Source: Isoetes taiwanensis (lineage: Eukaryota; Streptophyta; Lycopodiopsida; Isoetales; Isoetaceae). From it: a stretch of 64,000 nt of DNA. The stretch spans positions 618,001-682,000 of the forward strand of contig JAJEKV010000213.1 of NCBI GenBank assembly GCA_021234155.1, given 5' to 3'. The translations under genes and the position numbers were made by a program. Below, piece after piece: positions 5,843 through 43,942 of this stretch. Under the pieces are notes generated by a model. The model was not told the origin of the DNA and searched no databases. It saw only the letters and a list, made by a program, of their open reading frames with translations. How positions within the stretch are numbered: the stretch's first letter is position 1; each line of letters opens with the position of its first letter.

Positions 5843-8318
5843 CGAAACATAAACATAATAATACATAGTTTGAACATAAATGTAATCATTTAATTAACTT
5901 TAATGTAATCAATTTAGAACTTTCTTTAAATATTTAAAAAAAATAGCATTTTAATCATACAAAATTTATCTTAGATGAAAATTTAATTTTAAGTATATTA
6001 AAGTGAAAATTAGTTTAGAAAGTAATTTTGTACTTTGATCAATAAGAATAGAATAGAATAAGAGTAAAATTACGTATAATTTTATTATGGTTATCCTTCA
6101 CGTATATATATTAGATTTGAATAAGTTCAAATTTTGTTAAATATGTCATCTAGATGTTTAACGAGCATCTACTTATTTAAAATGTTTTTGGGGTGGGTTG
6201 TCTCCCTTTTTTCGGTCGCCAGTAATGCCGGTAACACTCATTTTTTCGGCCAAAGGCGTGATTTTGGGACTGGAAAAGCTTGGTTTTTTTTGTTTTCCAG
6301 CGATATGTTGGTTTTCAGCCTCCCTCGACCCAACCTAACGCTCCATTTACCTAATGCTCCATTTATCATGGTAGGAGCAAGCGGAATTATGGGGTGGTTC
6401 ATATTTTTCTGTTGCCAATCCGTCCGTTTTTCCTTTTTGGGTTTAGAGACGATGCCAAGGTCGAAACACAAAAGCTTCAATCTGGAACTCCATAAATCCG
6501 TTTACCAAAGCTTTTGCAGCTGGACATTTCATTCTCGCCGAGCAGAAATATTGCATACAACATCTTGGGTTTTGGTCATCGGTGCCTGCTTAGTGGTCGG
6601 AAGTAGCTATTGGTGCCTGGTTATGGCAGACAGAACTTGCATACGAAAGAATCCATCACCGCAACATAATGCCTAGCAGCTTTGATAGGGTAAGATTTTC
6701 AGTTATTGAACACTGCAATATCATGAGTTTCAACCTCGAAATATTCTTGCACAGATTTGTTCCACAGTTATATAGAGAAGGCGTGTTTTAGATATCTTAA
6801 GCATTTGACCAAGTTCAATTTCTGAGCCTGGATCTCTTTGTTGTGCGTATTTTGCTGGATGTAAAACCTCCTGATTTAATCTCCTCAAATCTGTATTTCA
6901 CAAAAAAGATCAGATGCTTTAAAGAAGTTGGAGATGAGTTTTAGCCTACAAGGACATTTCGGATGTGAAGCTACAAGGATCTGACATGGACAAAGGAAGC
7001 AAAGGTACAATGTATTCCATCTTTTTGGGTTTTTCTTAGAATCCACTATCCGTTCAGATTTCTCTGCTGTCAATCCGTTGTTTCTTCCTTTCTAGATTTA
7101 TAGCAACGATGCTAAGGTCGGAACACAAAAAGCCTCAATCCGAAACTCCATATCTCTATTATCCAAAGCTTTTCCAGCCAGGAATTGATTCTGGAAGCCC
7201 CGACCAGATTTTCTGGAAGACGGTTTTTCCAGCTTCTTTTTGTTCTACTCTTTTTTTTTTCTTTTTTGAAGTGCGTGCTTCAGGATGGCAATTAGTAGAC
7301 ATGTCCTTCAGTGCAGGTCCTTTAGCTGTAGACTAAACAGAATTATCAGAATTCTGGTACCTGATTCATTCTAAGGACATGCATAAGAACTTTTTCCAAA
7401 TCCATTATGTGCTATAGGTGCATTAACCATTATCATTTTTCCCAAATATTCTGTGTAGTAATCCTGATCTATCATAGAGATCGACTGAATAAAATTTCGC
7501 ATTGACTTGCTCATGTTGCAGGGTTTTGAAATCACAGGGTTCTTTTTCTAATCACAGAATTCTGAGTTTTAGAATTGCAGAGTTTTCTAATCACCAATTT
7601 TTTCAGCAGGTACTGCGCTCTAGGATTGTTTAGGATGGAAAATCCGAGAATCTGCTGCTCTGTCACAAAGGAAGCCAACATTGCATTGCATTTTTGCAAG
7701 CCAGTCTCGCATGTAAGGTATACTTCTATTGCATAATTTCGTTGTTCTTATTTTTAGGCCATTTTCATGTCAAATTGAATGTAAGTTCTTATTCTGTAAA
7801 GCCTATCATTAAGCAAAGAAGGATAAGAGGTCCTTTGTGAACAAGGTGACGGTGCAAACGCACTAATAACTTGCGTTTGCACTAATAAAAAGCATCTTTC
7901 AAAGATTCCCTAAGATACCCTTAAATTCAGCCACTTTTGGGGGGTCAATTAAAAAAATGACCCTAAATTTACGAATTTGGTAGCTATTTTAGGGGTCAAA
8001 ATTACCAAAAATTGGCGTCTTATTAATTTGACATCCCCATTTTAGGTATAAAAATAATAATCTAATTTAGTTGTTTTAGGTGGCAAAATGAAACAACGAG
8101 CAAATTCTTGACAAATTTTAAAGACAGAAACAATAAAATGCAGCCGTATGCATTTTTTATTGCTCAAGGAGCAGCACACATGCTATGCGCGCGCACAAAA
8201 ATAGTTTGCTACACAAGAAACAAAAATTGCAAAATGCTATGCGCGCATAGCAGGGATCCTAAGTTTGAAAGACAAACGTTGTACAAACTAGTCATGTACA
8301 GCTGTACAAATATTCAAA
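5843..8318. other. Intergenic, no supported gene
   Basis: There is an open frame of 180 codons at 6134-6676, but its translation is Phe/Trp/Ser-rich without any family motif. Two short hairpins are visible: 10-bp arms TGCAAACGCA/TGCGTTTGCA at 7853-7881, and the palindrome GCTATGCGCGCATAGC at 8236-8251. Confidence 0.4.
8236..8251. repeat. Perfect 16-bp palindrome
   Basis: GCTATGCGCGCATAGC is its own reverse complement. A half-copy (GCTATGCGCGCGC) lies about 55 bp upstream. It is 68 bp past the stop codon of the minus-strand gene that ends at 8319. No function is assigned. Confidence 0.7.
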
Positions 8319-23824: not shown

Positions 23825-24371
23825 AGGCCGCTATTGTCTAAGAAGAAAGTGAGGTTCTTTTTAGTAAATTTTTAGCACTATTTTTACCATTGATCTTTTT
23901 ATTTCCATATGCTTTAGTATATTCTTACTTACTTCTTCCTTTTATAGTATTTAGAGGATCTTACTATCCCTTGATACAATTTCCAGCCCGACAAACCCCT
24001 ATTCTCGATTTGCAAGTGCCTATGTAAGCAAGGAATCAGACATGGAAATTGCGTCTTCTTCCAGCAAATCTGTCAGGTACGTTCTTTCCTTATGTTATCT
24101 TGTTTTATTCAGGTCGTGTCAGGACCAGGATCATTGTTTTCTGTTTTTTTCTTTTTTTGGAAGCCAATTCCGTATTCTTTGTTTGTATTATTTAATTGAA
24201 TGTCTCACTGTTGCCATTTAATCATAACTACGAATAGGGACAAGCAACCAAAATTGCCGACTAGGAATCCTCCAAAGACAGGTGATAGAAGGAAAAAATT
24301 GCAGAGCAAGCATGTACACAAAAAAAACAACTATGAATGTTTCATTGCACAGAGAATCGCGACCCGCGAAT

Positions 24372-24620
24372 TGAGAATCCTTCACCCAGCCAACACTCCA
24401 TAAAGTACTCTCCCTATTCTCGCCTCACGAGTCGAGTTGAGAATCCCTCACCCAGTCAGCACTCCAGGAAGTACTCTTCCTATTCTACCCTCGCTCATGA
24501 GGCTAGAATAGGAAGAGTACTTCCTGGAGTGCTGGCTGGGTGAGGGATCGAGGCTAGAATAGGAAGAGTACTTCCTGGAGTGCTGGTTGGGTGAGGGATT
24601 CTCGACTCGCGAGTCAAGCA
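24372..24620. repeat. Local tandem and inverted repeats next to palindrome array
   Basis: 24444-24487 and 24504-24547 are 44-bp inverted copies (arms end TCCCTCACCCAG / CTGGGTGAGGGA, one mismatch). 24555-24598 repeats the right arm. A further partial direct copy lies at about 24372-24420. GACTCGCGAGTC motifs occur at the edges. Confidence 0.8.
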
Positions 24621-24689
24621 TGCCTCAGCCAGCCAACACTCCTATTCTCGACTCGCGAGAATAGGGGCTCAGTCTTGGTAGACACGCAA

Positions 24690-24939
24690 GTCGAGAGGAC
24701 CATAAAGAGGGCTGGGGGCTTTCTCGACTCGCGAGTCGAGAAGGCCCTCAGCCCTTGACCTGCCCAAGCTCTAGTGCATTCTCCAGTGTCGAGTTGCAGG
24801 TGCCTCTACCCAGTCAGAGCCACTTTCCTTCGAACCATCTTCCTCGAATATTGCGAAGGGGAGGGGCTCGGACTGGGTGGAGGCCTCTGTGACTAACCAT
24901 AGGGGAATGTATTTGAACTGCATCCCTAAGAAGGGCTGG
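24690..24939 (+). repeat. Palindrome-array unit left of the 18-kb insertion
   Basis: The palindrome core TCTCGACTCGCGAGTCGAGA starts at 24722. The following 200 bp match the units at 42943-43880, apart from a missing 40-bp segment. The unit ends at AGGGCTGG, directly against the terminal repeat of the 18-kb element. Confidence 0.9.
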
Positions 24940-24959
24940 GTAAAAGCATGAAAGGGTGT
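24940..24959 (+). repeat. Left terminal inverted repeat
   Basis: GTAAAAGCATGAAAGGGTGT. The next base inward differs from the right copy, so the repeat is exactly 20 bp. TGTACATATACATATGTAC follows at 24979-24997. Confidence 0.85.
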
Positions 24960-25194
24960 CTATAAATGTAGCCCTTTTTGTACATATACATATGTACCGA
25001 ATGCACATTTTTGGAATAACTGTCATCATGACCCGCTAGTAACTGCCATGATTAATGGCTATCCACCACTCTGAAACCGCACAATTTTCAGATTTTGAAA
25101 TTCTTTCCCAAATTCTTTCTTGGTTTGCCTCTCGTTCACTATCCCGCCCCTGCCTTCTCTGCTTGAATTCTGATCACGAATTCTTCATCTAGCT

Positions 25195-28100
25195 ATGGCC
25201 CCAAAACGCCCCCAGATGAGTGCTTGCTCATCACCACAGCCCAAGCAAGAAGCCAGTGCTTCCGGCAGTGGAATTTTACCTCCAAGGAGTACGTTTGGGT
25301 TCTGAAGTGATCCAAACCAAAGATCTCCGTGATAAACATGCAGAGGCCCACATATGGTTATGAACGAGGTATGGGGTGAAGCTCCAAAAAATAGACGAGG
25401 ATTCAAGGAAGGGAGAATCCAGAACACATGGATAGATGATTTTTTTAAATATTATGAATTGGTTTATGGCAAGAAACAGGTTACAAACCATTATATATCT
25501 ACCTATTTTGCCAGAGCATTTGCTCTTCACTTGAAGGGACGGGTTGTTGATTGGATGGACGTGGCTAGGACCGCCAAAGATCTTGCCAAAACCCTCATTT
25601 CAGACGTTACAGAGGACCCTACAACAGGTAAATCCTCAAATATCAAACAGGACATCGTATTGCAGCAGAATATTAGAGCCCTGGGTTATTCTAGATCAGA
25701 TGTTGACACAATAAAGCAGTTACTTAAGCATGGGTTGGAGGAGAAAACTAACCTATTGAATGAAGTAGAAGCATTGGAAGAAAAAAGGAGGGATGCATTG
25801 AAGGTCATCAGCCGGATTGAGGGTAGAAAGGATATGCTATCCGAAGATCTGCAGCAGATCTGCCAGAAAATAGATGAGACAAAACAGGAATTTGACAAAT
25901 TGTCCAAGGATCCTGCTGGAAATCAAGTTATCTTCGGAGTGTTGAAGTACAAGTTGGAAGACTTGGTTATGAGTAGACACGAGAAAGAGCAGCACTCTTC
26001 TAAGCTAGAAATTGGTTTGCAGGAAGCAACTAAAGATATTGAAAGGCATGAAATCTCAATTGAACAAGCAAAGGAAAAACTTAATTGCATTGAATTGGTT
26101 CAGCAAAGGCATTCACAGATTTTGGATTTTATGGGGGAGCGGGGACCTATTGTTCGCACCGAGGCCCTACCCCTCAGTAGGAGCTACTTCTATAGAGCAG
26201 TTCATCACATTAGGTTCATGTACTGTTGTGGCCAAGGCTTTGGCAAAACTGGTTTGTTCTGCTAGCTCCATGCGAGAGATGCTTATTGCCTCTTACGCTT
26301 GTGTTATCTCGGTCCATGAAAAAGGCAATTGCATAAAAGGTTGCATCGGGATGAGGGCATTGAATTCAGCTTGGTTTCCCTGCTGTGAAAGGTATGCATT
26401 GCTCTCAACCAATTTAAACTTATATTTCTCGTAATTCATATTTGTTATTGTAATGTGCATAGTTCTACATGTATGGCTTTCAGTGCATTGCTATTCCTTG
26501 TACATGTATAACTTTTTAGTGTAAATCAGAAGCAGAGGTACATAGGCATATATTTGCTTGTTTATTGATGCTTTTATTTTTGAGCTTGGACTGCAGTTGT
26601 ATCAGTTGTACATGTATCTAATGGAGTCTACATCTGCAAATAGATGTACATGCATTTATTTTTAGAGTGCATCTGTAGATGGATTCATAAGTATGTGCAT
26701 TTTTTACATATATGTGCTTTTTTTGGGCATAGATCTACATTCCCTAACTGGATACCTGGGTACATCTGGGTACATCTGGGTGCATTGATGTACATCTATG
26801 TACATTGAGGAACATGTACGTGTACATTTGGCTACAGTTAAATGTAGTTACGTACATTTGGTACATTTTATGTACATGAAATGTACATGTTGAAGCAGAA
26901 TGTACCAGATATTTCTCATTGTTTAAGTTCTGTTTTCATGTTCTTTTATGTCTATTGAAATTTAGATCATTTGTTTGTTTGCATATGAGGCTGTTCCTAT
27001 CCCAGAAGCAGCTTTAATGGCTGATGTTCTTGAGCCATCTGCATCGACTCTCTTTACAGATGTTATTGAGCATAAGCAGACCGAATCTGTAGACCCTCAA
27101 CCTTCCAGCTCCAGATCACCAATGACATTTACAGTGCCAGTAATAGAACCATCTGCAACAGTGCCTCCTCGAACATGGCAAAGTTGAGTCCACTCCAAAG
27201 AGGAGGCAAAAGAATGCTGGTGATGTAACTCCTGGAAGAGGAAAAAAACAGGCAAAATCTCCAAAGAACAAAAAATGTCCTCCAAAAAAGAAAATCTCCG
27301 GCAAAAAAGTGCCACCACCACCAAGAAAGAGGTATGTCCAAGATGAACTAATTTTGTTAAACATCTCAGATTTATGATAATTAACCAAATTTTTTTTGTG
27401 GATAGGACACGATCACAGGCCGTGAAGGAAGCGGATCCTGATCCTTCTGAGTCGGAACCGGAAGAGGAAGAGGAGCTACAGGAAAATATTGATGTGATAA
27501 CAAATAAGGTGCAAAGCATCCACGTAAGATCTTTGAAGCGGTGATGAATTTACAAGGTGAGTAATATACAATTGATTACAATAGATATATTCTTTTGCTA
27601 ATGTTGTTGTTTCCTTGTACAGTTTAGTGAACCGACTGAAAAGGTTGGTTCCATTCACTCCTTATAGGGACTGCCCTCCTAAGCCTGCACCCTCTATCTT
27701 TCAAAGTGATGGACGAGTTCTGCTGGAAGCTGGACTTGACCTCTAAGATGGTAGATGTCTATGGGAGGTAGGCTAGCATTTCAACATATTTATGTTATTT
27801 CATTCCCTAAGTCACTCATCTTATGTATTAATATGTATTCGGATTTGTGTGTGCGGTACCTTTGTAGCGATCTTCCATTTGATTGGAAACACAAGTTTTT
27901 TATGGTTTGACCGGACACCTTCCAGAATTTTGTGAATTCCCTCAAGAACCGGGGGGGTAGATGCACAGAACACTAACATAAAGGAAGGGCTGGATGGCAT
28001 TTTGATTGCAAGATGCCAATACATATTTGTTCCAGTCGCAAGGCCCAAATGTGGCATTGGCAATACTTGTGCTTGCTGGTCCAAATGAAAAGCACTTTTC

Positions 28101-30197
28101 CATCTATAGCTAGCCCAAGTATCTGAGATCCTCTCTCCTGTCAAAGGCTATGTACCCGATGCTAAAGTGGTCCGAAGTAAGTATGAGTTTCATTTTGTTT
28201 TTATGATTTGATTATTCTCATATTGCAATTTCTTATGCTTGATTTATTCTCACATTGCAATTTTGCAGGTTTCATAAGCTTGTGATCAATAACATGATGC
28301 TCGGATCCAACGGCTTAAGCCATGGTAGGAAGCACTTTGATGCTCCCGTGTTCTCGTCCTAAAATGCGAAACTAGTACCAAGAACCCTTGCATGTACATT
28401 GTGGCTTACATGCACAAATTCATAGATGCCGTGGTTGATGCACAGCCAAGCTCCATTTTTGTAAGTAGAACATGTCATTTTGCTATTAGTTATTTGTTGG
28501 TATAGTCCTCTAATACTTGTGCACCATGCAGATGACACCCAGTTGGTTCACTGATGCCTATGCCAAGTCACGGAGGGATCATCTAATGGAGGAATTAATT
28601 GTAGAAGGCGAGATGAATATACAAGCAATTGTTCCTACACAGGGTAGATAGTCCCTTTGACTTGTTTGTAAATTACAGTTTTGTATGAGCCATGCTCCGA
28701 ACTTCATTGTACTCAATAAGTAATGAAAAAATTAATTTATTTGTCTCACTTACACCTGTGCAAATAACAATCGTGTAATTATCAATGCGTTTTCTCAATT
28801 GTGTGATCTGAAATGTAATTATAAATTGTGAATCTCAAGTGTTTTCTTTGCTGACGGTGAATCATCTAATTCAGGGAGAAAGCTCATTATCTTTGACTTA
28901 AATTACGTGTTGGGCAAGAGTGTGCACAAGAATGAAAATATTAACTCAAGATACCAACGAGATCCGGAAAAGATGAGCTTCAATTTAATATAGGAAGCGG
29001 GTTTTTCATCGCAGGCCGGGGTTAGCATCATTGTTAGCATTTGTAAGAGAAGGGTTTGATGTTGCCATCTGGTCTTCACTCACTTCTAATAATCTTCACC
29101 CAATTGTGGAACATATTTGTGATGCTTTTTCCATAAAGTGAAGTTTGTTTCTGACCCGAGGGCGAGTGTTGGACTCGCCACACGGACACCCTCTTGAACC
29201 TCAAAAGGGGTTGTTTGTGAAACCATTAGCTATGGTATGGAAAGAGTACCCAGAGTACTATGGACATACTGATTCGATCGACGATTTTAAAGATACAAAT
29301 CCACTTTGAATTTCGTAGGAAGCTACATATGTCCTTTCTCTTGGACAACCGATATTGGTGGTGACAGATTGCTTGTCATGGAGCTCATTCCATGGCTTAA
29401 TGGATTCAAAATGGTCAAGATGGTATAGTTTATGTGAAAGAGCATCCAATGACTAATCGCAGCAGATAGCATATCGGGCGAGGTGGAGCAGATTTTCTTT
29501 GGCAAACTATGGCAGCAACTTGGGTGCTCTAACGCCTAAATTTAGTCAATATCTGGAGCAAGGAATGGAGAAACCGCCATCATGTTATTGGCCTCTCGAC
29601 CGCCCATTGTTGGTGGAGACTTTGGTGATGTACAAATTCAAATGTTATGAATATATGTATCAAAGTTTTTGTTCATTGCACTTGAGTACTCTGTTTTTAC
29701 TGTCTCTCTTATTGGTACAATTATGAGTGTGTATACATAATTAAGTGATCTTCATTTGCTTTGTAGATGAATGGACTGAAATACAAAAGACTATTAAGAA
29801 ACTAAGAGATCGAAGTTCTGCGCGCACCCAGAGGTAATACAAACCAACATAAGCTGCAAATACATAGGGTTGGGGACCGATTATCGCCTCTATACTGCTG
29901 TTCCTGAACTTTGGGAAAAGGTTGAGCAAATTGAAAATTATGAGGAACGAGCAACCATGAAATGTATATTGGCAGCAAATCACTTGTTGCACAACCCTTG
30001 GGGGAAGGCACGTGTCCTGGAAGATGCTTGGCCATGTAGGATGGAAAGGTTTGCCGCTGGCGTGCTATATAGAAACCGCATGGACTACTGCTTTAGAGGA
30101 TATCTCTTCAGCCTCTCGGCGGGCTGGAAGACATGATGCAATAGTCATAAGATATCAGGCTCCTACTGACATTTTGAAGCTTGGTCATGAATTATGA
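25195..30197 (+). pseudogene. Coiled-coil, Ulp1-like and NLI-phosphatase-like composite gene of the 18-kb element
   Basis: The gene probably starts at the ATG at 25195 (MAPKRPQMSACSSPQPK). An open block at 25354-26265 follows with a long Glu/Lys/Leu coiled coil (residues about 110-270). Later exons give a basic region (KKQAKSPKNKKCPPKKKISG, 27235-27305), an intron at 27332-27405 with GT/AG ends, then an acidic exon (DPDPSESEPEEEEELQEN). Next comes a decayed Ulp1/C48-like protease: YIFVPV at 28019, a frameshift, MWHWQYLCLL at 28049 (catalytic His type), and KNPCMYIVAYMHKF with the likely catalytic Cys codon at 28389. Next is an NLI/FCP1-like phosphatase-like region: LIIFDLNYVLG at 28883, RRPGLASLLAF at 29007, IWSSLTSNN, and DSIDDFKDTNPL near 29271. 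The DxDxT site reads D-L-N-Y-V, so activity is doubtful. The gene ends with further broken frames to 30197. Stops and frameshifts occur throughout. Confidence 0.6.
26755..26895. repeat. TGTACAT cluster, intronic
   Basis: About ten GTACAT or TGTACAT motifs in 140 bp, in an intron of the plus-strand gene. Similar clusters occur at 30385-30445, 40440-40680 and 42845-42922, all inside the 18-kb element. Confidence 0.8.
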
Positions 30198-30384
30198 GCC
30201 ATGCTCATTTTCGGGTGTGTTGTATTTATGTCCACAATATAAATATATCAACCATTTGTACATGAAAACCTGTCCATTTCTTATCTTTGCCATGACTGAA
30301 ACTATTTTTAATGTTTATGCAATTCAACTTTCTTGTGTTCAATTCTAATCAACTTACACTTAACAAATTTTTATAATATTTCTG

Positions 30385-30445
30385 GAATGTACAACAGATG
30401 TACATAAGATGTACATATGTTGTACATCTTATGTACATTGATGTA
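30385..30445. repeat. TGTACAT cluster between the convergent genes
   Basis: Five TGTACAT-type motifs in 60 bp, between the end of the plus-strand gene (30197) and the stop of the minus-strand gene (30540). Confidence 0.8.
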
Positions 30446-31971
30446 CATAATGCACTTCTGAAGTAGTCCAGTTCTTCAGTTCTTATCTTTTATATGAACA
30501 AAGTATTACAATATTTCTGGAAAGTACTACAGATCTGACTTAGTCCATGTCATCTACAATTGCTGGAAGTTGTGATAACAATGTCTCATGGACTTCATCT
30601 GGCAAGTGAAATGATGTGCTTGCCCCCTTCAGCTCGTGTTTTACTTTCTTGAATGGGATTCGAACCCCAATCACAGATTCTGCAGGTACCAAAACATTCT
30701 TAGTAGGAAGCAGTTTATACTTCCTTCAATGACACTAGTGCCAGCAGAGTATTCATTTCCATAGTCATCAATTGAATCTTCTTCCAATGCATGCTTTTCC
30801 TAGTGCACATGAGAACATAGTATGAAACACCTTCCACATTGTCCAGTCGCAAAAAGACACAAATACATCTCAAAGCTAGCTACAAGTGTCATCTAAACCA
30901 CCCGCCCTCCTCAAGATACAAAACATCCACATCATTTTCAGCTTCAACACGAGAGGCAATATGATCCGTGGGCTCCAAACTTTTAGAGACCATTCTCCAC
31001 AATGTTTAATGTTCTCACAATTCAACCAATTGAAGTTCATGCAAGCATCACAAAAGCACGAGAGTAGTCGCAGACGCAACTTTGTTGGATCTATTTGGGT
31101 TTATAGTTGACACGAATGTATCCGTTGAGTACCGTGTAAAGTCTTGCAATTGAATGCTTGCTGCTTTGTTCACATCCGTTTTTCCAACCTCACAAAACAC
31201 CCTTTCACAATCCGATTCCTTGGCCCTTAAAACCGCATTGTTGTTTACGCACCTATCAACGGCATGCCATTTTGTTTTCTCGCCGCTCTCAAGCCACAAC
31301 TTTGCTATACCAGCCTCGCCATCATGTGTGCCTTTCCCATGGCCAGATCCAAAGAAATTCCATATCACTCGAATTTTATTTTCAACATGGTATCTATAGA
31401 TTCCATACCATGCCCGTGCAGATTTGAATTGAGATGCACAACCATCCGACCACACATAATGAAGGTTTATGTGTCCACCTCCATTATTCTTAAGCCACCC
31501 CAAATGTAATTTAAAACCATGTTGCACAAAATGAGTGTCATGCTTCCTATCATCTGAAACATAGAAATGCACTGTATTTTTAAGCTTACCTTCTATTTTC
31601 ATCATTGAAATATGGACCAAAATACTAATTTGATCAGGATTCCAATGCTCGGATTGCACTTCTGTTCCTGGTTTCAATGTGTAGTTCTCTACAAAGTCAA
31701 CAACAGACAACATACTATTATCCGGGAGTTTCTCAACACATCTTTTAAACTGTTTGCTCTGCCAGTGTGCTGTAAAGTTATGATCTGTAAACTTAGCAAG
31801 CTGATTTTTCATGTTCTTTAACAAAACAGATGCTTTGTCATTCTGATCAACTAATCTAAGCCTTCTGAATGTACCTTTTTTGGATGGCTCATTGACATAT
31901 GCATATACTTGCCAGTCCACATTCTGAATTCCAATTTCCTCGTTTGGACAGATGTCTAATTTCTTCACTCC

Positions 31972-34440
31972 ACATTCTTTTTTTTTTCTTTTTTTCTTTT
32001 TTTTTTTGAGGAAAAGGAAGGATTATATTACTCATAAATTAAAAACATACAAAATAAGGCTCAGAGCCCATAACAGAAAAAATTAAAACAGTAATATAGT
32101 AGCAGTAGATCCAATCAGCCATTTGGCACAAAATATAGACTGTCTGATCTGATGATCACCTTCAGAGCCATATACCAGAAGTAGAGGGAGCAGGATTTTG
32201 AGAAATTGGAGTAACAGCAGAAGGAAAAGGCAATGGAGATAGGTTCAATAATGAATCCGGAATGGCAGGGAGGTCAGGGAAAGAGTGTGTAGCATTAAGG
32301 TGCAATGAAAAACAAGGGGGGGCAAGCCAATTGATCTCAGCCCAGGAGGGGGTCAACAGCAAAAGTTCATCAATAGGGACCTGAATAATATCCAACAAAA
32401 CACCAGCTGCAGCTTCACATCTACCCTTGTGATAATAGTACATGGACCTTAAGCATGAAAATTGTCTTTCTGTGAGAAGATGGTTATGAGCTCCAATAAA
32501 CTTGTGCAAGATATGAGCGTTGTAAGCTTCCTTGAGCAGGAATTTTAACCGAAAAGTAGCCCTTACTGCCTGCCTGGGAGTCCCCAAGTGGTGAGTGGGT
32601 ACATCATCCGGGAGAATTGTCCTCCTAAAAACCTGGACCACACTGTTCAAGAAAGCTGCAATCCACGAAGGCATTCAAGTCAATGAGAGAATCCAAATGA
32701 ATAGTAAAGAAGTTAGACTTGAAGGATCCCCAATTCAGCCAATCCAAGTCAAACTTCTCTAATTTTAGAGCCTTATGAGCCATGGCACATCTGATAAGTT
32801 CAAATTGAAAATTAAGCTTCATCCAGTTAAGGTCACATTTCCTGTTTGCCAGAGCCACATTATTTCTATGTTTCCAGATTATCCACAAGGCTAATTGTAA
32901 AATTGTGCAATTGACAGGAATTCTAGAGCTGGAAGAATTGGGAAATACCGAAACGTAATCAAGGTCGGGATTTTTAAACCCTAACCGAGTCAACCATCTC
33001 CAAAAGTCCACGAATCCTTTGGCAAGTGAAAATGTGTAGTGACTCATCATGAGTGTTCAGAGTGGCGCAGAAAAGCACTATGAACAGACCTGAACTTTCT
33101 CTTGATCATGTTAGTATTGCTCAGAATAGCATTATGGAGAATGAGCCAAGAGAAAACTTTAATCTTAGGGCAGGCATAGGATTTCCAACTGGATTGAAGA
33201 GTTTTCTTAAAGTTCTTGGGGGAAAGGCCCTGGAGAGAGGCATGCTTTTTGCTTTTTTGAGGAAGACATGCATGATAAATCTTAGAAACTTTATAGCTCC
33301 TCTTGATTTTGAAGAACCAGTTCAGAGATGAATGACTTTCCCCTTTACCATCTTTGCCTAAGAAGGGGGAATAAATCTGCACAACTTTCTTATAAATAGA
33401 TCTGTGAGTAGCACTCCCTCCCACTTTCTTCTTAATCACTTCCCAAGGAATCCAGTTTTCCTCATCATCAATAAGGTCTCTGACATAAAGAATATTAGCA
33501 GAATGCCATTTTTTGTAGCAGGTCGGATGACTTATAGCCATGGCCAGGGAGGAAGAAGGGGCCAATCACAGGTGACCAGAATATGGAAGTATCCCTCACA
33601 GAATTTGAGAGTTTGTCATGAGTAAAGATTGCAGCTACCTTTTCCCAGGCTTTAAAGATACTCCTGAGAAGAGGGGAAGTATTGGCTGCACATTGAAAAT
33701 TATAAAAGGCCGAGTCTGGGAGCTGATGTTTAATAGAGGGGCTTCCTAAGGGTTTGCTCTTATTAAGCCAGAACCTGATAAAGTCCATAGCAGGAGATTG
33801 GAAACCAGAGATGGCTTTCCAAACATTTTTAGCCCCAAGAACTTGGGCCTGAAGAAATAAGGACTTACATCCCAATCCTCCTGCTTTTTTACTATGAGTC
33901 AGCTGGTCCCAGGCAGATAGATGAGTACCTTGCCAAATGTATTCTTTAATACACTGCTCAATCTTACTATAAGAGGCTTTGTCAGCAATCAAAGCAGAAG
34001 AAAAGTAAACATGATTGCTAGCAAGGGACGTAATTGGCTATCAAGATTCTCTCGGCCGAGACAAGGAACCTTTAAGGAGGAGAAGCTTTTTTCCGATCCC
34101 CGTTAATGAGAGGCTGCCATGCAATCTTATGAGACATATGCACTGCAAGGGGGAGCCCTAAGAGGGTCAAATATTGCCCATTGGGGAAAACTTGATACCA
34201 TGAGTGTTGAGATCAGGATAAGAGCCATAAGCTAGAATAGAACACTTGGTATAATTCAGGTGAATTCCGGAAGCAGCACTAAATTTGGAGATACAGTCCA
34301 TGAAATTGCTCATATTGTTATTATCAGCTCTGAGCATAGTGAAGGTATCATCAGCATATTGGAGGATCGAGAGCTGTTTATTAGAATCAGGCATTTGAAG
34401 CCCTTGGAGCAAACCCTTATCTTGATAAGAGAGGACATTC
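31972..34440 (-). mobile_element. 5'-truncated L1-type LINE nested in the transposase exon
   Basis: The body is 31978-34434, flanked by ACATTC on both sides (31972-31977, 34435-34440). T-rich sequence at 31978-32008 is the poly(A) tail seen from the plus strand. The minus-strand order is RT motif C (ILQYADDTFTML, near 34370) and LNYTKCSILAYG. Then come a thumb region (IKEYIWQGTHLSAWDQL), GGLGCKSLFLQAQ, the zinc-knuckle region (KIKVFSWLILHNAIL, with its Cys pair decayed) and an RNase H-like tail (ALWIIWKHRNNVALANRK). Several frameshifts break it. The 5' end, including the endonuclease and RT motifs A-B, is missing. Removing the body plus one ACATTC (2463 bp, a multiple of three) rejoins the host exon in frame. 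Confidence 0.9.
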
Positions 34441-34770
34441 ATCACATTCACCTTTGATGCATTTTAGTTTATGCCATTCATCCGTCACATATTTCTCGCA
34501 AACTGTTGACCTCCACAAGATACTAACATTATCAAAAGTTTTCTTGTTTGCTTGACATACTCCATTGTTTTGCTGGGATGCACAGACACTGCAGTAGCAA
34601 GTGCAATTAACATGTAGGGATCTCCTCATATCATTGAAGGCCTTTCTGTACAGATCTGCTTGCTCATGTTTGACACAACAACATGTGTTTCTCTCCTTCA
34701 ATTTCCTTATGCAATCAGGTTTCAGATACTCGAACTGTCGAAGGCAAATTTTGGTATCAGGATTCTGATA

Positions 34771-35386
34771 TACAAACTGTTGATGTTATACTGTATGTAC
34801 ATCTAATCTATGAGAAGCAGTGGCAGTAGATTAGAATGTACTGACCTATGAGAAGCAGTGGCAGTAGGTCAACTCCTAAGGTATAAGTCAAAGGTGGCGG
34901 GCTAGTGCTACCCGGGTGTTGCTACACTCACTAGAAATCGTCAGGTACCCCCTGCCCGCCACTTAGGGTTTTTGGTTGACTAGTCAAAGTCAAAGTTAAT
35001 CAGGGCCGAAATTTAAGGTCGGCAAGCCCTATCAGCCCCGAACATTTAGGCAATCGACAAGTGGACGTAATTTGACGGTGAGAAGAAATAGAAGGGCCGA
35101 AGATCTCGCCTGACCGAGCTGCTACTCTGCACCGACAGAATGTATATAAAAAGTGGTGTAATGCAATGCATTGGTGTGCGGTGTGACGGATTGAAGTTGA
35201 AGACGAGTTTGTCTATGTGTAAGGAGCTTGGGCTCTCGGAGACAATGTACAATGCTTAAGATATTTTGTTCAATGGTTTTAAATATACAATATTGAGAAG
35301 CATTGATTGAGAAAGGAACAATTGTTTTCATATTGTTGATTCATCTCTATTAAAATTAGAGTACTCACCTCTATAGATTCTCTTCA
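34771..35386 (+). repeat. Copia 5' LTR
   Basis: It ends in TCTTCA directly before the primer-binding site. A TATA-like TATATAAAAA lies at 35143-35152. It differs from the 3' LTR at only about three substitutions and two small indels, apart from its first 15 bp. Confidence 0.9.
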
Positions 35387-35387
35387 T

Positions 35388-35400
35388 TGGTATTAGAGCC
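35388..35400 (+). promoter_or_regulatory. Copia primer-binding site (initiator tRNA-Met type)
   Basis: TGGTATTAGAGCC directly follows the 5' LTR. It matches the usual plant Copia site TGGTATCAGAGC with one C-to-T change. Confidence 0.85.
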
Positions 35401-35413
35401 AGGTTGAAGCATA

Positions 35414-38400
35414 ATGGCTACCAGATTTGGTGCAAATCTGCTGAATTCTATAGAGGTATTTAAAGGAGATGGCGGCTTTCAAATTTGGAAGCAAAGTATC
35501 AGAGAAGTATTGGAATTCGAAAAACTGTGGTATTTAGTTGATCCTAATGTTTCTGGAAGCCCTCTTACAACTGTGAGTGCAGGGACAGCTAGTCAAGGGG
35601 GAACTAGTGCCAGCTCAAGTGCTGAAGGCTCTACTCTAAGGGCAACTGCTGAAAGTGCACCTTCTCGTCCCTCTATTGTAACAGTTAGTGGAGAGGATGA
35701 AAAGCTGAAAATCATGGAAGCACAAGCAATCATCAGTTGCAAGGTTGGATCTGTGATTAAGTTGAAATTGAGGGGTATGACCCCAAGGGAAATGTGGATG
35801 TATTTAATTAAAGAATATGAAGCCAAAACATCCTCTCAGATTGATGTGTTGGAGAAGCAGTTGAGAAGGTTAAAACTGCATGAAAAAGATAATGTAACTG
35901 AGTTTTTTGAAAAGTTTGATTCCATTATAGCAGATCTAGAAGGTGTTGGAGTTATTCTCAATGAAGAATATCAATTACTGGCCATATCGCGAGCAGTATC
36001 ACACAACACTCATCTTGCTACCTTATTAAGGAATGTTGCAAAATCGAAGGAGCATGCAATTAGGATGGTAAGAACTGAATTTGAGCAGAGTAAATTGCAT
36101 GAAGATGATGATGAGAATACAGAGGTATTGTACACTGGAAAATATAAGAAGAATAAAGAAAAAAGGAAGATAGGGCCATGCTATAATTGTGATAGTTATG
36201 GTCATCTTAAGGCTGACTGCCCAAGGTCTGGAAGAGAGATAATATGTTACAATTGTGAAGGCAAAGGTCATATGGCCTCAAGCTGCCCAAGTCCGAAAAA
36301 TACAAAAGGCAAGGATAAGAGTTCTGGTTTCAAAAAGGGATATAACAGCAGGAGAGGAGCACCAAGGAAGAACCCCACGATTAATCTCACTGAAGACAAA
36401 CAAAGTGAAGAAGAGGAGCTTGATGAAGATGCAGAGGTAAGCCTCCCTGGATTGCATTCTATTGTTAGTAATAACATTGATAATAATGTTATGATAATAG
36501 ATTCTGGAGCTGAAAAAACAGTAGCTGCAAATCCCAATATGCTTAAAAGTTGCAGGGGAAGTAAAGGAGGACATGTTCAATTAGGAAACGGAGAACTTCA
36601 AGAAATTGAAGATGTAGGAGAGAGTTGTTTGACTTAGAAGGAAAAAAGTTGCAGTTGGAGAATGTGCTTTGTGTGCCTGGCTTAGTGAGAAATTTAATTT
36701 CTGTCTCTCAATTAGTGGATCTTGGATATAAGGTCTTATTTGAGAAGTTGCATTGTAAAGTTTTGCTCAATAATAAAGTGATGTTCTTGGGAAAACGTGT
36801 TGGCAATTTATTTGGTTTATGCAGTGATCATATACTGGCCAGTATTAACTTTGTTGGATATCCAACCTTAAAATAATGGCATCATAGAATGTGTCATGTG
36901 AATTCCAGAGCCATTGAACTATTGGAAAAAAAGGGAATGATTAATGTTAGCAAAGAGGCTGAAGAACTAAAATGTGCAGGCTGCATATTGGGAAAGCATT
37001 ACAGATTACCTTTTAAAAAATCTCTCAAAAGAGCAAAAGGACTATTAGATCTGATCCACACAGATCTATGTGGGCCACTCAATGTGACAAGCTTATCAGG
37101 TAAACGATATTTCATGACTCTTATTGATGATTTCAGTAGGAAGACATTTGTCTATTGTATTAAGACAAAAGTTGCAGCTCTGGAAATTTTCAAACAGTTT
37201 GTAAATGAAGTTGAAACCGAAACAGGGAGAAAAATTAAGTGTTTAAGGTCAGATAGAGGGGGAGAGTTCATATCAGATGAATTCAAACTCTATTGTAGGA
37301 AGAGAGGAATCAAAGGCAACTCACATGCAGGTACTCTCCTCAACAAAATGGAATTGCAGAAAGAAAGAATAGAACAATTTTGAATGCAGTCAGAAGTATG
37401 CTAAAATTTTCAGGATTACCCAATTTTCTTTGGGATGAAGCTGTTAGAGCTGTTGTTTATGTTAAAAATATGTTACCATCAGTGGCCTCACAGGGAACAA
37501 TTCCAGAAATGCTATGGTCTGGTAAGATACCTCATTATGAAAATTTGAAGGCATATGGATGCATAACTTTTGTGCACATACCTGATGAACTCAGAAAAAA
37601 ACTTGATGACAAGTCACTAATAACTTACATGGTTGGTTATGATAATCAATCAAAGGCTTATAGGCTGTATGATCCACATAGAAGGAGAATAGTAGTAAGT
37701 CGAGATGTTATATTTGATGAAGACCAATTATATAAGGTTATACCAAAGGTGAATGTACAAGATGCAGATCTGGAATGCAAATCATCTGAGGTAATAGCAG
37801 AAAAAACAAGTGTTGAAGCCATTCAAGAGAAGGAACAGGAGCAAGCTAAACACTTTGATTCTGACACAGAATCTGAAGCAGAAGAAGACACGCCAATTAA
37901 AGATATTGCTAACATGAATAATGATGCAGGTAATGACAATGCTATGCCAGTTCAAGATGAGGAGGTTATAAGTGCCAAGCGTACAAGGAAAAAGAGACAA
38001 ACTGAAGTTCAAAAGTTGCAGGAAGGCTTGCAAATAGATACAACTCATCATGGACGAGATGAACTCGGGAGGAGTAAAAGACTTCACGAGAATGAAGGTG
38101 AGATTCATGATTTATTTGAAATTTTGATGCATTTGGATACTAATGTACCCAAGACCTATAATGAAGCTCTGACTAAAGCTGACAAGGCTGAGTGGTTAAA
38201 GGCAATGAATGATGAGTTAGCATCATTCAGAAGAACAGAGACTTTTGAATTGGTAGATATGCCAGAAGGGCAAAATATAGTGGGGAACAAGTGGCTATTT
38301 AAACTAAAAACTGGCCCTGATGGGAAAACTCCAAAATATAAGGCCAGATTGGTTGCTCAAGGGTTTTCACAAAAAAGGGGCCAGGATTATGAGGAGACTT

Positions 38401-39710
38401 TCTCACCACTTGTCAAAATGAACAGCATTAGAATGTTGTTGTCCATAGCCAATGCTTGTGATCTTGAAATACATCACATGGATGTTAATACTGCTTTTTT
38501 GAATGCTAAACTTGAAGAAGAAATATATATGAGACAGCCTCCTGGGTTTGAAGAAGGAAAGGACAAAGTATGGAAATTAAAAAGAGCAGTTTATGGACTC
38601 AAGCAATCTCCTCGAGAATGGTATAAATGCATGGACTCTTATCTGATTGATCAAGGGTTTAGTAAATTCAAAAATGATGGAAATATCTATAAATTTGTGG
38701 CAGGAAGTGAATGGTGCATTATTGCACTTTATGTTGATGACAACATTATGATAGCAAAAGGAAAAAAATGCTTAGATCAGTGTAAGAACATTCTGAATAG
38801 AAGATTTAAAATGACAGATCTTGGAGAATTGCAGAAGTTCTTAGGTGTTGAAGTGAAAAGGAATCGAGCAAATAAAACTATAATTCTTACTTAGAGGGGT
38901 CAAATTGAGAGCATGTTAAAGAAGTTCAAGATGGAGCAATGTAACAGCTGTAAAACACCTGCTGTACCAGGGTATAAAATCTCAGAACAAATGTGTCCTA
39001 AGGATGACATTGAAAGAGAAGAAATGATTGGCACACCCTACAGATCACTGGTAGGATGTCTGTCTTATGTTGCCAACTGTACAAGGCCAGACATATCACA
39101 CATTGTTAACATTTTAAGCAGGTATAATAATGATCCAGGACGAGATCATTCGAGTGCAGCAAAAAGGGTACTCAGATATCTTAAGGGCACTATGGATGTA
39201 GGAATAACTTACTGCACAAATAACATGATCCTAAGTTCATATTGTGATGCAGATTGGGGAGGTTGCATTGACACTAGGAAGTCCACATCTGGCTATTTAA
39301 TGCTTCTAGGAGGTGGACCGATAGCATGGAAGTGTAAAAAGCAAAGTTCAACTGCTCTATCAAGTGCGGAGGCAGAGTATGCAGCTGCCACTTTGTGTGT
39401 AAGAGAATTAATTTGGGAGAGAAGATTGCTAATAGAATTTGGCTTTCCACAGTCTGAAGCTACTATAATGTACTGTGACAGTACAAGCTGCATAGCAATG
39501 TCTAAGGATCCAGTTTTGCACGAGAGATCCAAGCACATTTGAGTTAGAACTGCATTTTATAAGAGAAGCAGTCAGTAAAGGTCTAGCAAAATTGGCCTAT
39601 GTGAACACTACAATGCAACTTGCAGATATTCTAACAAAAGTCCTAGCTGAAGGAAGATTTACAGAACTCAGAAGATTAATTCAACATACAGATATAACAT
39701 GAAGGGGGAA
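35414..39710 (+). pseudogene. Copia gag-pol, broken
   Basis: 35414-36637: gag with two CCHC knuckles (CYNCDSYGHLKADC and CYNCEGKGHMASSC), then a protease site MIIDSGAEKTV. A frameshift near 36620 follows. 36625-36876: NVLCVPGLVRNLISVSQL, then TAA at 36874-36876 just before WHHRMCHVN (pre-integrase). 36877-37383: integrase core with HTDLCGPL, LIDDFSRKT and SDRGGEF, then a frameshift near 37330 before the catalytic Glu segment. 37380-38894: integrase C-terminus, RT with MDVNTAFLNA and YVDD, then TAG at 38892-38894. 38895-39542: RNase H with YCDADWGG and SSAEAEYAA, then a frameshift near 39540. A polypurine tract (GAAGGGGGAA, 39701-39710) precedes the 3' LTR. Confidence 0.95.
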
Positions 39711-40333
39711 TGTAAATGTTAGGTCATGTTATACTGTATGTACATCTAATCTATCAGAAGCAGTGGCAGTAGATTAGAATGTACTGACCTATGAGAAGCA
39801 GTGGCAGTAGGTCAACTCCTAAGGTATAAGTCAAAGGTGGCAGGCTAGTGCTGTGCTACCCGGGTGTTGCTACACTCACTAGAAATCGTCAGGTACCCCC
39901 TGCCCGCCACTTAGGGTTTTTGGTTGACTAGTCAAAGTCAAAGTTAATCAGGGCCGAAATTTAAGGTCGGCAAGCCCTATCAGCCCCGAACATTTAGGCA
40001 ATCGACAAGTGGACGTAATTTGACGGTGAGAAGAAATAGAAGGGCCGAAGATCTCGCTGACCGAGCTGCTACTCTGCACCGACAGAATGTATATAAAAAG
40101 TGGTGTAATGCAATGCATTGGTGTGCGGTGTGACGGATTGAAGTTGAAGACGAGTTTGTCTATGTGTAAGGAGCTTGGGCTCTCGGAGACAATGTACAAT
40201 GCTTAAGATATTTTGTTCAATGGTTTTAAATATACAATATTGAGAAGCATTGATTGAGAAAGGAACAATTGTTTTCATATTGTTGATTCATCTCTATTAA
40301 AATTAGAGTACTCACCTCTATATATTCTCTTCA
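39711..40333 (+). repeat. Copia 3' LTR
   Basis: It begins TGTAAATGTTAGG after the polypurine tract and ends TCTTCA. It has a 5-bp duplication (GTGCT) relative to the 5' copy. The 5' LTR start reads TACAAAC instead of TGTAAAT, so its terminal TG has mutated or the border differs by a few bases. Confidence 0.9.
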
Positions 40334-40439
40334 GATAAAGCTCAGACTGCAATAACAAAAGCATTAAAGACCATGTTAGCAAAATGATGTCGGCAACCAG
40401 ATGCCAAAAGAGTATTGAACTATACTATTGTACAATTAA

Positions 40440-40680
40440 TGTATGTTCTATGTACATAAAATGTCCATCCAACAGTTCCACTGATCTGTTACTGTACATC
40501 TAATGTACATCTAATGTACATCAGTACATCTAATATACAGCCAACAGTTCCACTGATCTGTTACTGTACATCCAATGTACATCCAGTGTACATCTAATGT
40601 ACATCTAATTAATGTTCCAATATTAGTACATCACATTAATGTTACAATATTAGTACAACTAATGTACATATGTATGATTT
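40440..40680. repeat. TGTACAT cluster in transposase intron
   Basis: At least eight TGTACAT(C/T)TAATG units, mostly spaced 10-20 bp, together with two copies of CAACAGTTCCACTGATCTGT. Confidence 0.85.
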
Positions 40681-40872
40681 GTTTGGCTTCATTACCTGAA
40701 AGTACACTAAAATGTAAAATGATGTAATTTTGATATTCAAGTACATGTAAATGCAGCTGCATGGACATGTAAGTGTTAATGGATGTACATCTAAAAAGTA
40801 CCTAATAGCACATCACTGCAAGATTTCTGCTACTATGTAAACAATGTAAAAATGTAAACAATGTAAAATGCT

Positions 40873-40902
40873 ACGGTTCTATTGCGATAGCAATAGAACC
40901 GT
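40873..40902. repeat. Hairpin with 13-bp perfect arms
   Basis: ACGGTTCTATTGC, loop GATA, GCAATAGAACCGT. It lies just beyond the TGTACAT cluster, where base composition shifts to GC-richer sequence. It may mark the end of another small insertion in the intron. Confidence 0.8.
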
Positions 40903-42844
40903 CATTCCTTGGATGGGGACGCCCCAGTATCACGCCCTCCTATTTATAGACCGGTTTTTCCCTTGGTTGGCTATCGACATTCTCTTGAGCTTTGCTTTGT
41001 TGTCTTTAGCGCCTTCTACCTACCTTCCCGCCCTTCCCTCCCTCTCTTTGTGTTCTTCTCGGATGGTATAGGGTTCATTGGCTCTGGTTCGGTTGAGTTT
41101 CTTGGGTTTGTTGGCAGTAAATTGTTCATGTTTGTTCCATGTTGTTATTCCTCTTTTCCTTTGGTCAAGTGACCATCTACGGTTTCTGTCTTCTTTCTCT
41201 ACCTCTCAGATTGCTTTACTGCCTCTGGCACCCTCCATGTTTTTCGTTGTCTGATGTTCTTGGCAAGTTTATATGTTCTTATGGTTCAGTGTTCTCAGCG
41301 TGGCTCTGTAGCCTCTGAGGCATCCTCCAATTTTTCATCCCTCAGCGTGGCATTGTAGCCTCCGGAGGCAAACACTAATCGAATATTTTTCTCGCGATGG
41401 TCATTCCGCGGGACGATTTTCGATTGGTAAATTTTGTTGTTCCTTTGTTCAGCGTGGCCCCGGGCCTCGGACTTGATTGGATATTTGATATATTATTGCG
41501 CAGGGCGCCTAACTCCTTGACGGGTTTTTTCTTCATCGTTGCCTTTGCAGGTTGATTCTGAGGTCTCTTGGTGATCGAGATGCACGGGATTGCGCAAGGA
41601 CGGGGCTTGCATCCCGAGGAGAAGCGAGCACCAGTTTTCTCTTCCTTGTATAAACCGAGCGGCGGATGAAAGATCTTTGTTCATCTTGTGTTTCGTAGTC
41701 TCTTCGCGCTCTCGATGATTGTCTAGTTTCGGAGCATTTATATTTCACGTTCTTTCAAAGCTCTACCCTAATAGGGGAATCAATTTGTATTCAACGATTT
41801 CACAAAGCTCAATGAGAATACCACTTCACTATCGGCCACTTATGTGTAGATCAGGACCCATCCTAGGAATGCAATACATTTCATGAAAAACATGTGTATT
41901 CATTAACAGGTCACTCGGAACAAAACTAGAATGTACAGAAGAAAGTCATGAAAGCAATTTTGGAAGAAAACATAATCTCCAAAACTGAATTGATTCAATT
42001 ACAAGAGCAAACCTGTGAGATATCAAGGTATTGTATTGCTTGTGTTCTCCTCTTCATGACATCTCTAACCTTTGGTGAAACTTTGGTATTGTCAAGCCAA
42101 AATTCACGAACCTGACATTTGATTGAATCATCGATTCTATTTGATCTTGGCATCCTTCCTGCCAAAGCCTATACATTTGCTCCACTTAATGATATTATCT
42201 TCCTTCTTGCTACAGCTTTGGATAAATTTCTTGGCTGTATCTTTAGCAATTTTGAAGAAACATTCTTGTTTATATCTCCTTTTTTTCCAACAATCATTGA
42301 TAACAGTGAATGTTTTGCAGCCAATTTATCTTTGCTATTAGCAGACTTTACTTCTTGAAGCCCATCTTTCAAGTTTCGATCATTGATTTCATAACAATAA
42401 CCCGGAAGGATTTCCAATTACAGGTTTGAAAAAAGAAAAAAGCACGTCATCTTGCAACAAACGAGCACAAAAACTAATCTTTGATCGGGCCGAAGCGTTT
42501 GCCCGAAAGAATCGAGGATGCAATCCACCGACTGGTCAACACATTTGCTTTATTTGTTTTGTGGCATAACACTGGCCAATGTCGGCATACTTGCGCTTTT
42601 TAGAACCATCACTTCCATTGGAGTTCTCACCCTCCATGAACATTGAAATTGATTTGTATTTCTTGTAGATTCAATTGGCATGTGTTTTATACGGAATTGC
42701 GTTGGTGTTCGATCACGTGAGCGGGGGAATTTTCGGAAAGGGAGGGATGAATCCATTCGAATTGGTTCGGTGGTTCGGTGGTTAACCAAGGCACTGTCAG
42801 GGATGATCTCGCAATCATTGCATATCTGACGCAAAACGACAAAC

Positions 42845-42942
42845 CATAGTATCTTGATGTACATCTAAAATGTACCCCAAAAAAAGCACAAATTCGTCCT
42901 TCAATTCAGTACGATGTACGTACACCCTTTCATGCTTTTACG
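42845..42942 (-). repeat. Right end of the 18-kb element: TGTACAT motifs and terminal repeat
   Basis: GATGTACATC, ATGTACCCC and GATGTACGTAC precede the terminal repeat ACACCCTTTCATGCTTTTAC at 42923-42942. Confidence 0.85.
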
Positions 42943-43880
42943 AGGCTGGGGGCTTTCTCGACTCGCGAGTCGAGAAGGCCCTCGAGTCTTACATACAGCA
43001 ATGCGGACTCTTTATCCCAGATCCACCTTTAACCTGCCCAAAGCTCTAGTGCATTCTCCAGTGTTGAGTCGTAGATGCCTCTACCCAGTCAGAGCCACTC
43101 TCTTTCGAACCATCTTCCTCGAATATTGTGAAGGTAAGGGGCTCAGACTGGGTGGACGCCTCTGCGACTAGCCACAGGGGAATGCATTTGAACTGCATCC
43201 CTAAGGAGAGCTCAGGGCTTTCTCGACTCGCGAGTCGAGAAGACCCTCGAGTCTTGCACACAGCAATGCGGACTCCTTATCCCACATCCGCCCTTGACCT
43301 GCCCAAGCTCTAGTGCATTCTCCAATGTCGAGTCGCAGGTGCCTCTACCCAGTCAGAGCCACTCTCCTTCGAACCATGTTCCTCGAATATTGCGAAGGGG
43401 AGGGGCTCAGACTGGGTGGAGGCCTCTGCAACTAGCCACAGGGGAATGCATTTGAACTGCATCCCTAAGGAGAGCTGAGGGCTTTCTCGACTCGCGAGTC
43501 GAGAAGAGCTTCGAGTCTTGCACACAGCAATGCAGACTCCTTATCCCACATCCGCCCTTGACCTGCCCAAGCTCTAGTGCATTCTCCAGTGTCGAGTCGC
43601 AGGTGCCTCTACCCAGTCAGAGTCACTCTCCTTCGAACGGGAAGGGGCTCAGACTGGGTGGAGGCCTCTGCGACTAGCCACCGGGGAATGCATTTGAACT
43701 ACATCCCTAAGGAGGGCTGGGGGCTTTCTAGACTCGCGAGTCGAGAAGGCCCTCGAGTCTTACACATAGCAATGCAGACTCCTCATCCCACATCCGCCCT
43801 TGATCTGTCCAAGCTCTAGTGAATTCTCCAGTGTCGAGTTGCAGGTGCCTCTAGCCAGTCTGAGCTGCTCTCCTTCGAAC
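42943..43880 (+). repeat. Tandem array, ~264-bp unit with 22-bp perfect palindrome
   Basis: Palindromes with core TCTCGACTCGCGAGTCGAGA start at 42957, 43221 and 43495; a mutated one starts at 43737. Spacing is 264, 274 and 242 bp. Each unit also has CTCTAGTGCATTCTCCA, ACCCAGTCAGAG and its inverted partner CTCAGACTGGGT, so the unit itself folds back. The last unit has lost part of the middle. The array continues leftwards at 24690-24939 across the 18-kb insertion. Confidence 0.92.
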
Positions 43881-43942
43881 CATCTTCGTCAAATAGTTGT
43901 TCGCGAGTTACTCCAATTGGTTGCTCCCTTGCTCAGCATCTC

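Follow-up and report, generated by a model that had tools for sequence, protein, structure and literature searches.

The 64,000-nucleotide stretch of Isoetes taiwanensis DNA analysed here (contig JAJEKV010000213.1, positions 618,001 to 682,000; the whole stretch is referred to as the window) carries a DNA transposon at 24938-42943 with 22-bp inverted ends and a 4-bp target-site duplication, GGCT/GGCT. This copy is most likely (with a probability of roughly 0.7) a decayed member of a cut-and-paste family that forms a lineage of the Sola superfamily, or one that works alike, and in which a second gene, gene 2, is a working part of the element. A preliminary description of this DNA had already proposed two convergent genes, and on this point open reading frames (ORFs), tblastn and comparison with a consensus agree.

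The limits of the element were determined from the ends and the flanking duplication. The preliminary description had placed perfect 20-bp inverted ends here. This 20-mer is indeed present exactly twice in the window and in inverted orientation, at 24940-24959 and 42922-42941, which occurred in none of 100 shuffles, but the true limits were set two bases further out because the other copies and the GGCT/GGCT duplication show it. The features at the two ends are as follows.

24934 to 24937: left target-site duplication GGCT (from the sequence; the 4-bp register is taken from other copies)
24938 to 24959, plus strand: left terminal inverted repeat, GGGTAAAAGCATGAAAGGGTGT
42922 to 42943, minus strand: right terminal inverted repeat, the last two bases of which are mutated in the window copy
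42944 to 42947: right target-site duplication GGCT

Twenty other copies in the genome start with GGG and finish with CCC, one of them (L004) with one changed base at the start. An exact 4-bp repeat flanks 17 of these 20 copies, against 0.93 on average and at most 6 for shuffled pairings, while at other lengths the same copies gave no flanking repeat (3 and 5-8 bp) or a single one (2 bp). Relatives with TT-type ends behave in the same way; an exact 4-bp duplication is present in 10 of 11 copies (shuffled mean 0.89, maximum 6), the sample being ten miniature elements plus the copy L070, taken from the first places of the list for the wider end pattern described below. The duplications are mixed in sequence, such as GGCT in the window copy and TCTT in the divergent element L023+L046. 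At L028 the ends are of the family type, but the flanks are without a matching 4-bp duplication, and a further 2 kb of sequence did not reveal where the L024 element has its right end. The window copy lies beside and within a tandem array with units of ~242-264 bp and the palindrome TCTCGACTCGCGAGTCGAGA (24351-24937 and 42945-43895), and inverted repeats of 50-64 bp adjoin the element at 24433-24609.

The expectation that other copies with these termini exist was borne out. In the 1.66-Gb genome the 20-mer was found with at most one mismatch at 508 forward and 530 reverse places, and a wider end pattern built from relatives at 1889 and 1926 places; the control, which for the 20-mer was the reversed pattern, gave 0 places in both cases. 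Inspection by eye of 100 listed 20-mer places gave 14 pairs at 9.1-9.75 kb, 10 miniature pairs, 2 longer pairs and 48 unpaired places, and the sampled copies are 13 of the 14 full-length pairs and 7 of the 10 miniature pairs. The 13 full copies measure 9131-9324 bp from GGG to CCC, have a pairwise identity of 88-95% and contain short open frames only. The 7 miniature copies measure 252-265 bp, and the 10 with TT-type ends 320-325 bp. A complete element of a divergent subfamily (L023+L046) is 11.6 kb long and has the family ends, the TCTT duplication, a transposase and parts of gene 2. With 3,815 wider-pattern end sequences in one genome, an abundant group of plant transposons is defined. Many full-length matches to the chlorophyll a/b-binding family are present in this genome, which agrees with a plant or green alga, although one cyanobacterial control genome gave matches too. 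Searches of viral and prokaryotic collections with two peptide patterns each gave no confirmed relatives, a result that distant relatives can escape. The copy L070 (C22:249966-258981) is 8.9 kb long, has TT-type ends and is flanked by an exact 4-bp duplication. Its interior is mostly pyrimidine-rich low-complexity sequence; no gene was detected in it with the gene queries of this analysis.

When compared with a 9284-bp majority consensus built from the 13 full copies, the window copy proved colinear at 92-95%, with three interruptions, each recognised as a gap in colinearity.

~31978 to 34434, minus strand: nested insertion, by reading a long interspersed nuclear element (LINE), with reverse-transcriptase-like ORFs
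~34785 to 40333, plus strand: nested element, by reading of Copia type, with long terminal repeats that are 98-100% identical
~40852 to 41867: third nested insertion, a 1-kb genomic repeat

The earlier count of two nested insertions with about 10 kb left has to be corrected to three insertions, without which ~9.0 kb are left and ~255 bp of the consensus are missing. The LINE-like insertion has its poly-A side at 31978 and CACATTC on both sides. A genome search in which 40 of 2289 candidates were scored gave at least 62 matches to the 1-kb repeat, the best of them reaching 98%. The repeat has a palindrome near one end, and in several of its copies a 32-base piece of the far end is repeated beside the near end.

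The transposase gene lies on the minus strand and its parts are the following.

30543 to 34785, minus strand: main coding exon, split by the nested element at 31978-34434 (tblastn with the L022 transposase)
31186 to 31914, minus strand: RNase H-like core with three conserved Asp residues (alignment row; L022 model)
41998 to 42670, minus strand: 5' coding region for the N-terminal part (ORFs; by reading it resembles the upstream exon of L021)

The product of the main exon has a conserved core that is flanked on its N-terminal and C-terminal sides by Cys-rich parts. The upstream exon is open over 294 codons in L021. The window transposase as a query gave at least 125 matches in the genome, in a search that scored only the best candidates; their identity ranges from 50% up and many have open frames of 400-629 codons. 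The main exons of L021 and L022 lie on different contigs, are 98% identical and have open frames of 620 and 629 codons. There are hints in these sequences that the transposase of L021 and L022 may have been active more recently than that of the window lineage.

The 244-residue core was modelled from an alignment of 22 sequences, with a mean predicted local distance difference test score (pLDDT) of 68.4 and a predicted template modelling score (pTM) of 0.65. The elements of this model follow the RNase H order of three strands, helix, strand, helix, strand and helix. In VIA-align 2, for which the typical best Z is 7-8 for models without a clear match, the core model reached Z 10.8 with the HIV-1 integrase core (2.0 A over 85 residues) and Z 11.2 with a short Argonaute. 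The best Foldseek match is an Argonaute chain (1.3e-4), and in a viral fold library the matches were to generic RNase H, RuvC and terminase-type folds, with two viral proteins annotated as DDE transposases further down the list at weak E-values. Asp residues 73, 157 and 198 of the core are kept in 21, 22 and 20 of the 22 rows, the missing cells being two gaps and one other residue, and Glu200, two residues after the third Asp, is kept in 20 rows. Strand 1 holds one of the three Asp residues, the others being placed where strand 4 ends and immediately ahead of the last helix, and RNase H-type transposases hold their metal ligands at such strand and helix positions. The DD[E/D] protein of the preliminary description is supported by this core and its conserved Asp residues, and it is plausible, from the predicted fold and the candidate triad of three aspartates (DDD), that the minus-strand gene encodes a DDD-type transposase. 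The best Pfam and NCBIfam matches of the transposase, such as Pro-kuma_activ at 0.004-0.007, are below the cut-off and were taken as chance. Motifs like DFAENY, SDG..QFK and HGK..DG are found in proteins that are common in animals. At L026 (~4082-6400, minus strand) what by eye looks like another transposase gene, of pogo-like type, lies directly behind the transposase; it is perhaps part of a nested or neighbouring element.

The ends and the core also bear on a relationship to Kolobok, which is very improbable. Kolobok ends are described as 5'-RR/YY-3', which GG...CC fits, and KolobokP has duplications of 3-5 bp (PMC9587614; for this and the other sources cited here, statements refer to the parts of the text that were available). 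Nine of the 22 rows have a CxxH or DxxH motif that lies after the second Asp and before the third, but the motif is absent from the other 13, the window row among them, and TTAA, the duplication of the classical Kolobok lineages, makes up none of the 27 exact 4-bp duplications. Long terminal direct repeats such as those of KolobokP were not seen either, though no search was aimed at them.

Gene 2 lies on the plus strand and has, in order, an N-terminal domain with a coiled coil, a RING-type Cys cluster, a low-complexity linker, an Ulp1-like region, an NLI/FCP1-type (NIF) domain and a C-terminal domain.

25195 to 26262, plus strand: N-terminal domain and coiled coil, frame-broken (open frame 25336-26262; tblastn; start codon by reading)
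26147 to 26409, plus strand: RING-like Cys cluster (tblastn with the L024 exon)
26927 to 27205, plus strand: low-complexity linker (tblastn with the L024 exon)
27776 to 28532, plus strand: Ulp1-like region in two exons, with catalytic positions partly lost (tblastn with the L024 exons)
28844 to 29546, plus strand: NIF domain (tblastn)
29745 to 30191, plus strand: C-terminal domain of no known family (tblastn)

The Ulp1-like and NLI-phosphatase-like parts that had been proposed for this gene proved to be real homologies, which are clearest in relatives. The NIF profile matches above the cut-off in L024 (6.2e-14) and L027 (3.4e-12), and just below the cut-off of 21.8 bits in the window fragment 28989-29138 (21.2) and in L021 (21.4). 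Peptidase_C48 is above its cut-off of 20.7 bits in L021 (21.2) and L023 (22.7), and the Ulp1-like exons of L024, which is of the window lineage, gave no match to the C48 profile. The RING-like part stays below the cut-off (zf-RING_UBOX 0.0018 in L046; zf-RING_2 0.43 in L024), and the C-terminal domain has no Pfam match in the relatives.

Variations in the catalytic residues of gene 2 have been observed. By eye, the Gln-bearing Cys motif of the Ulp1 part is intact in L021 (VPQQGDLASCGLYV) and L023 (VPQQPDLTSCGLYV), and in L024 the Cys is kept and the His and Asp places are changed. The DxDx[TV] motif of the NIF domain is incomplete; its second Asp is replaced by Asn in all 13 rows that cover it (14 were aligned), and both Asp residues are lost in L021. 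Enzyme activity of gene 2 appears doubtful, at least in the window lineage, because catalytic positions are partly lost in both the Ulp1-like and the NIF parts. The accessory regions had been called decayed, which is correct for the window copy; the catalytic loss in the Ulp1-like part, however, is also found in the mostly open L024 and is therefore older than the decay of this copy.

The joint presence of the two genes was set beforehand as the refuting test, and they did occur together, in all 13 full copies sampled and at 7 of 8 related loci; of the genome-wide pairs, 38 of 38 are convergent. In tblastn searches the N-terminal, RING-like, Ulp1-like, NIF and C-terminal pieces of gene 2 were located downstream of the transposase and on the opposite strand in all 13 full copies and in the window, and the linker was found in 12 of the 13. 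At least one gene-2 piece is downstream and convergent in 7 of 8 related 10-kb loci; at L025 the best NIF match is elsewhere, on the other side of the transposase. A NIF match lies within 12 kb of at least 38 of 72 window-lineage transposase matches, which is a lower bound as the count compares two independent genome lists of best-scored candidates only. Of the 38 linked pairs, 33 are 1.1-2.8 kb apart, and five shifted controls gave 0. For this count, the 125 transposase matches were reduced by the second pieces at C926 and C1056, which gave 72 matches of the window lineage and 51 of divergent lineages; the two groups were split by eye on identity and stop content before distances were computed, and 150 of 155 NIF matches were used.

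Selection on both genes was estimated from the ratio of nonsynonymous to synonymous substitution rates (dN/dS). Five between-lineage pairs gave 0.15-0.20 for the NIF domain, and five such pairs gave 0.06-0.14 for the transposase core; one transposase pair was saturated. Several of the sequences carry stops, which raises the ratio. Gene 2 was under purifying selection before the copies decayed and is therefore regarded as a working part of the element and not as a recent capture. The contrary view, in which one subfamily picked up gene 2 from the host and the gene is a passenger that plays no part in transposition, is unlikely. The NIF domain is nearest, among solved sequences, to the host-type phosphatase UBLCP1 (9.7e-6), and plant transposons often capture genes. 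However, pieces of gene 2 occupy the same convergent place across subfamilies whose transposases are ~50% identical, its NIF and C-terminal parts are ~27-41% identical between subfamilies in most comparisons, and the low NIF ratios between lineages also argue against a passenger.

The sequence TGTACA is enriched in the family consensus (34 sites; shuffles mean 3.0, maximum 7), where it forms three internal clusters besides single sites near the ends.

26499 to 26887: first internal TGTACA cluster
30388 to 30447: second TGTACA cluster, between the 3' ends of both genes
40429 to 40789: third TGTACA cluster, internal

TGTACAT clusters at both ends, as had been described, were not confirmed, and their role as terminal or shared recognition signals was rejected. 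TGTACA is not taken as a shared recognition sequence because the clusters are internal and there are few sites in the relative and in the miniatures; the related element L023+L046 shows no enrichment (6 sites; shuffle mean 4.0, maximum 11), and in each of the 7 miniature copies there are one or two sites.

The mechanism proposed for the family is as follows. A DDD transposase with an RNase H-like core would recognise the 22-bp ends GGGTARAAGCATGNNAGGGTG and cut there, and insertion would follow at target sites without a set sequence, with a stagger of 4 bp; here the duplications are observed and the enzymology is deduced from them. The miniature elements of 252-265 and 320-325 bp share the ends and duplications and were probably moved in trans. 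Gene 2 would travel convergently with the transposase as a working part of the element, and its product may be an accessory nuclear factor that acts on host modification pathways, a step with less support than the others. The Ulp1-like and RING-like parts may act on SUMO or ubiquitin, and the NIF-type part may provide a phosphoprotein-binding surface. In this respect gene 2 would be comparable to the accessory proteins of other two-gene plant transposons. MuDR and VANDAL are likewise two-gene autonomous elements with a transposase and a separate accessory gene, but they belong to another superfamily and have other accessory domains.

A bolder reading, which is possible though tentative, is that the element represents an undescribed two-gene lineage in which a DDD transposase has for long been coupled to one multidomain factor, with coiled-coil, RING-like, Ulp1-type and FCP1-type parts, that counters host silencing by SUMO or ubiquitin or recruits the transcription machinery, the enzyme domains of the window lineage being binding pseudo-enzymes kept by selection. 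No transposon with Ulp1 and an NLI-type or other phosphatase was found in a literature search to which Repbase was external, and the novelty of the pairing of Ulp1 and FCP1-type domains in a transposon gene is not proven. If gene 2 does act on SUMO or phospho-signalling of the host, it would be relevant to the way in which DNA transposons coexist with silencing and repair. The exact ends, duplications, open-frame relatives and miniature partners of the family mean that the mechanism can be tested.

Several observations weigh against placing the family with Sola and against gene 2 as a working part. The likeness to Sola rests on described traits and not on a sequence comparison. The transposase has no match in Pfam, NCBIfam or the sequences of solved structures, the core model was built from 22 related sequences of one genome, and the model of the whole exon is poor (pLDDT 50.8), with no Foldseek match at E 0.001 or better, although VIA-align ranks retroviral integrases first (Z 8.4). 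No gene-2 piece was found at L026 in the stretch examined, and no NIF domain in the complete element L023+L046 by tblastn or profile. None of the 51 divergent-lineage transposase matches has a nearby NIF match among those listed, the NIF query being distant from those lineages. The dN/dS ratios are higher in the NIF domain of three close pairs (0.32-0.38), in the transposase of two pairs within the window lineage (0.22-0.28) and in the Ulp1 and C-terminal exons compared with decayed copies (0.40-0.53, one C-terminal pair being saturated). Because the Ulp1-like and NIF-type parts have lost some of their catalytic positions, enzyme activity is also less likely in the window lineage.

Why, then, is Sola preferred? 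Sola elements are described as having a DDD transposase, a 4-bp duplication, a length of 2-9 kb (some are longer than 15 kb) and ends of 11-1124 bp; they occur in Physcomitrella and are seemingly uncommon in flowering plants (PMC10741241). Sola1 has been tabulated for Physcomitrella and Sola for two peppers (PMC9033089). The element resembles them in its predicted DDD triad, 4-bp duplication, inverted ends, length and plant host (PMC10741241, PMC9033089). The term "unnamed" used in the preliminary description is not established, as DDD together with a 4-bp duplication in a plant are described Sola traits (PMC10741241). Membership in Sola has been decided by convergence with Sola transposases in PSI-BLAST (PMC4455052). 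A DDD/E superfamily of its own, with the 4-bp duplication acquired by convergence, is rather doubtful but is the most serious competitor for the place of the family. It would agree with a transposase that has no match in the profile libraries used and with a fold that matches only generic RNase H types. Every Sola trait tested, however, was found in the family: the 4-bp duplication, the predicted DDD core, a length of 9131-9324 bp (11.6 kb in one relative), inverted ends of 22 bp and a plant host. Assignment to the Sola superfamily, or to a lineage that works alike, is accordingly favoured over a separate superfamily.

The second gene also invites comparison with elements that carry Ulp1 domains. 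Ginger1 and Ulp1-bearing Mutator elements have, like the present family, an Ulp1-type domain in a DNA transposon, and these domains have been proposed to act in transposition or repair (PMC2836005). If the family were of Mutator-like, CACTA or Ginger type, with an Ulp1 domain of the kind known from plants and animals, this would account for the domain, but such an identity is extremely improbable. The duplication is 4 bp here and 7-12 bp in plant Mutators or 3 bp in CACTA (PMC10741241), and the ends are GGG...CCC and not TG...CA or CACTA (PMC2836005, PMC10741241). No matching profile was found for the transposase. In Ginger1 the transposase itself carries the domain, with integrase and Ulp1 (or OTU) in a single protein (PMC2836005, PMC10741241), whereas the Ulp1-like part lies here in a separate convergent gene. 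Ginger1 and Mutator differ from the family in duplication length and ends, and no NIF or RING-like part is mentioned for them in the available text (PMC2836005).

The available Sola descriptions likewise mention no Ulp1/NIF gene such as the one found here (PMC10741241, PMC9033089). A similar situation exists for an amoebozoan Sola2 with a captured Fanzor1, which also combines a second protein gene with 4-bp duplications (PMC3627910). The second gene of that element is a TnpB-like nuclease and its duplications are AT-rich (PMC3627910), whereas those of the Isoetes family are mixed and its second gene encodes Ulp1-like and NIF-type parts.

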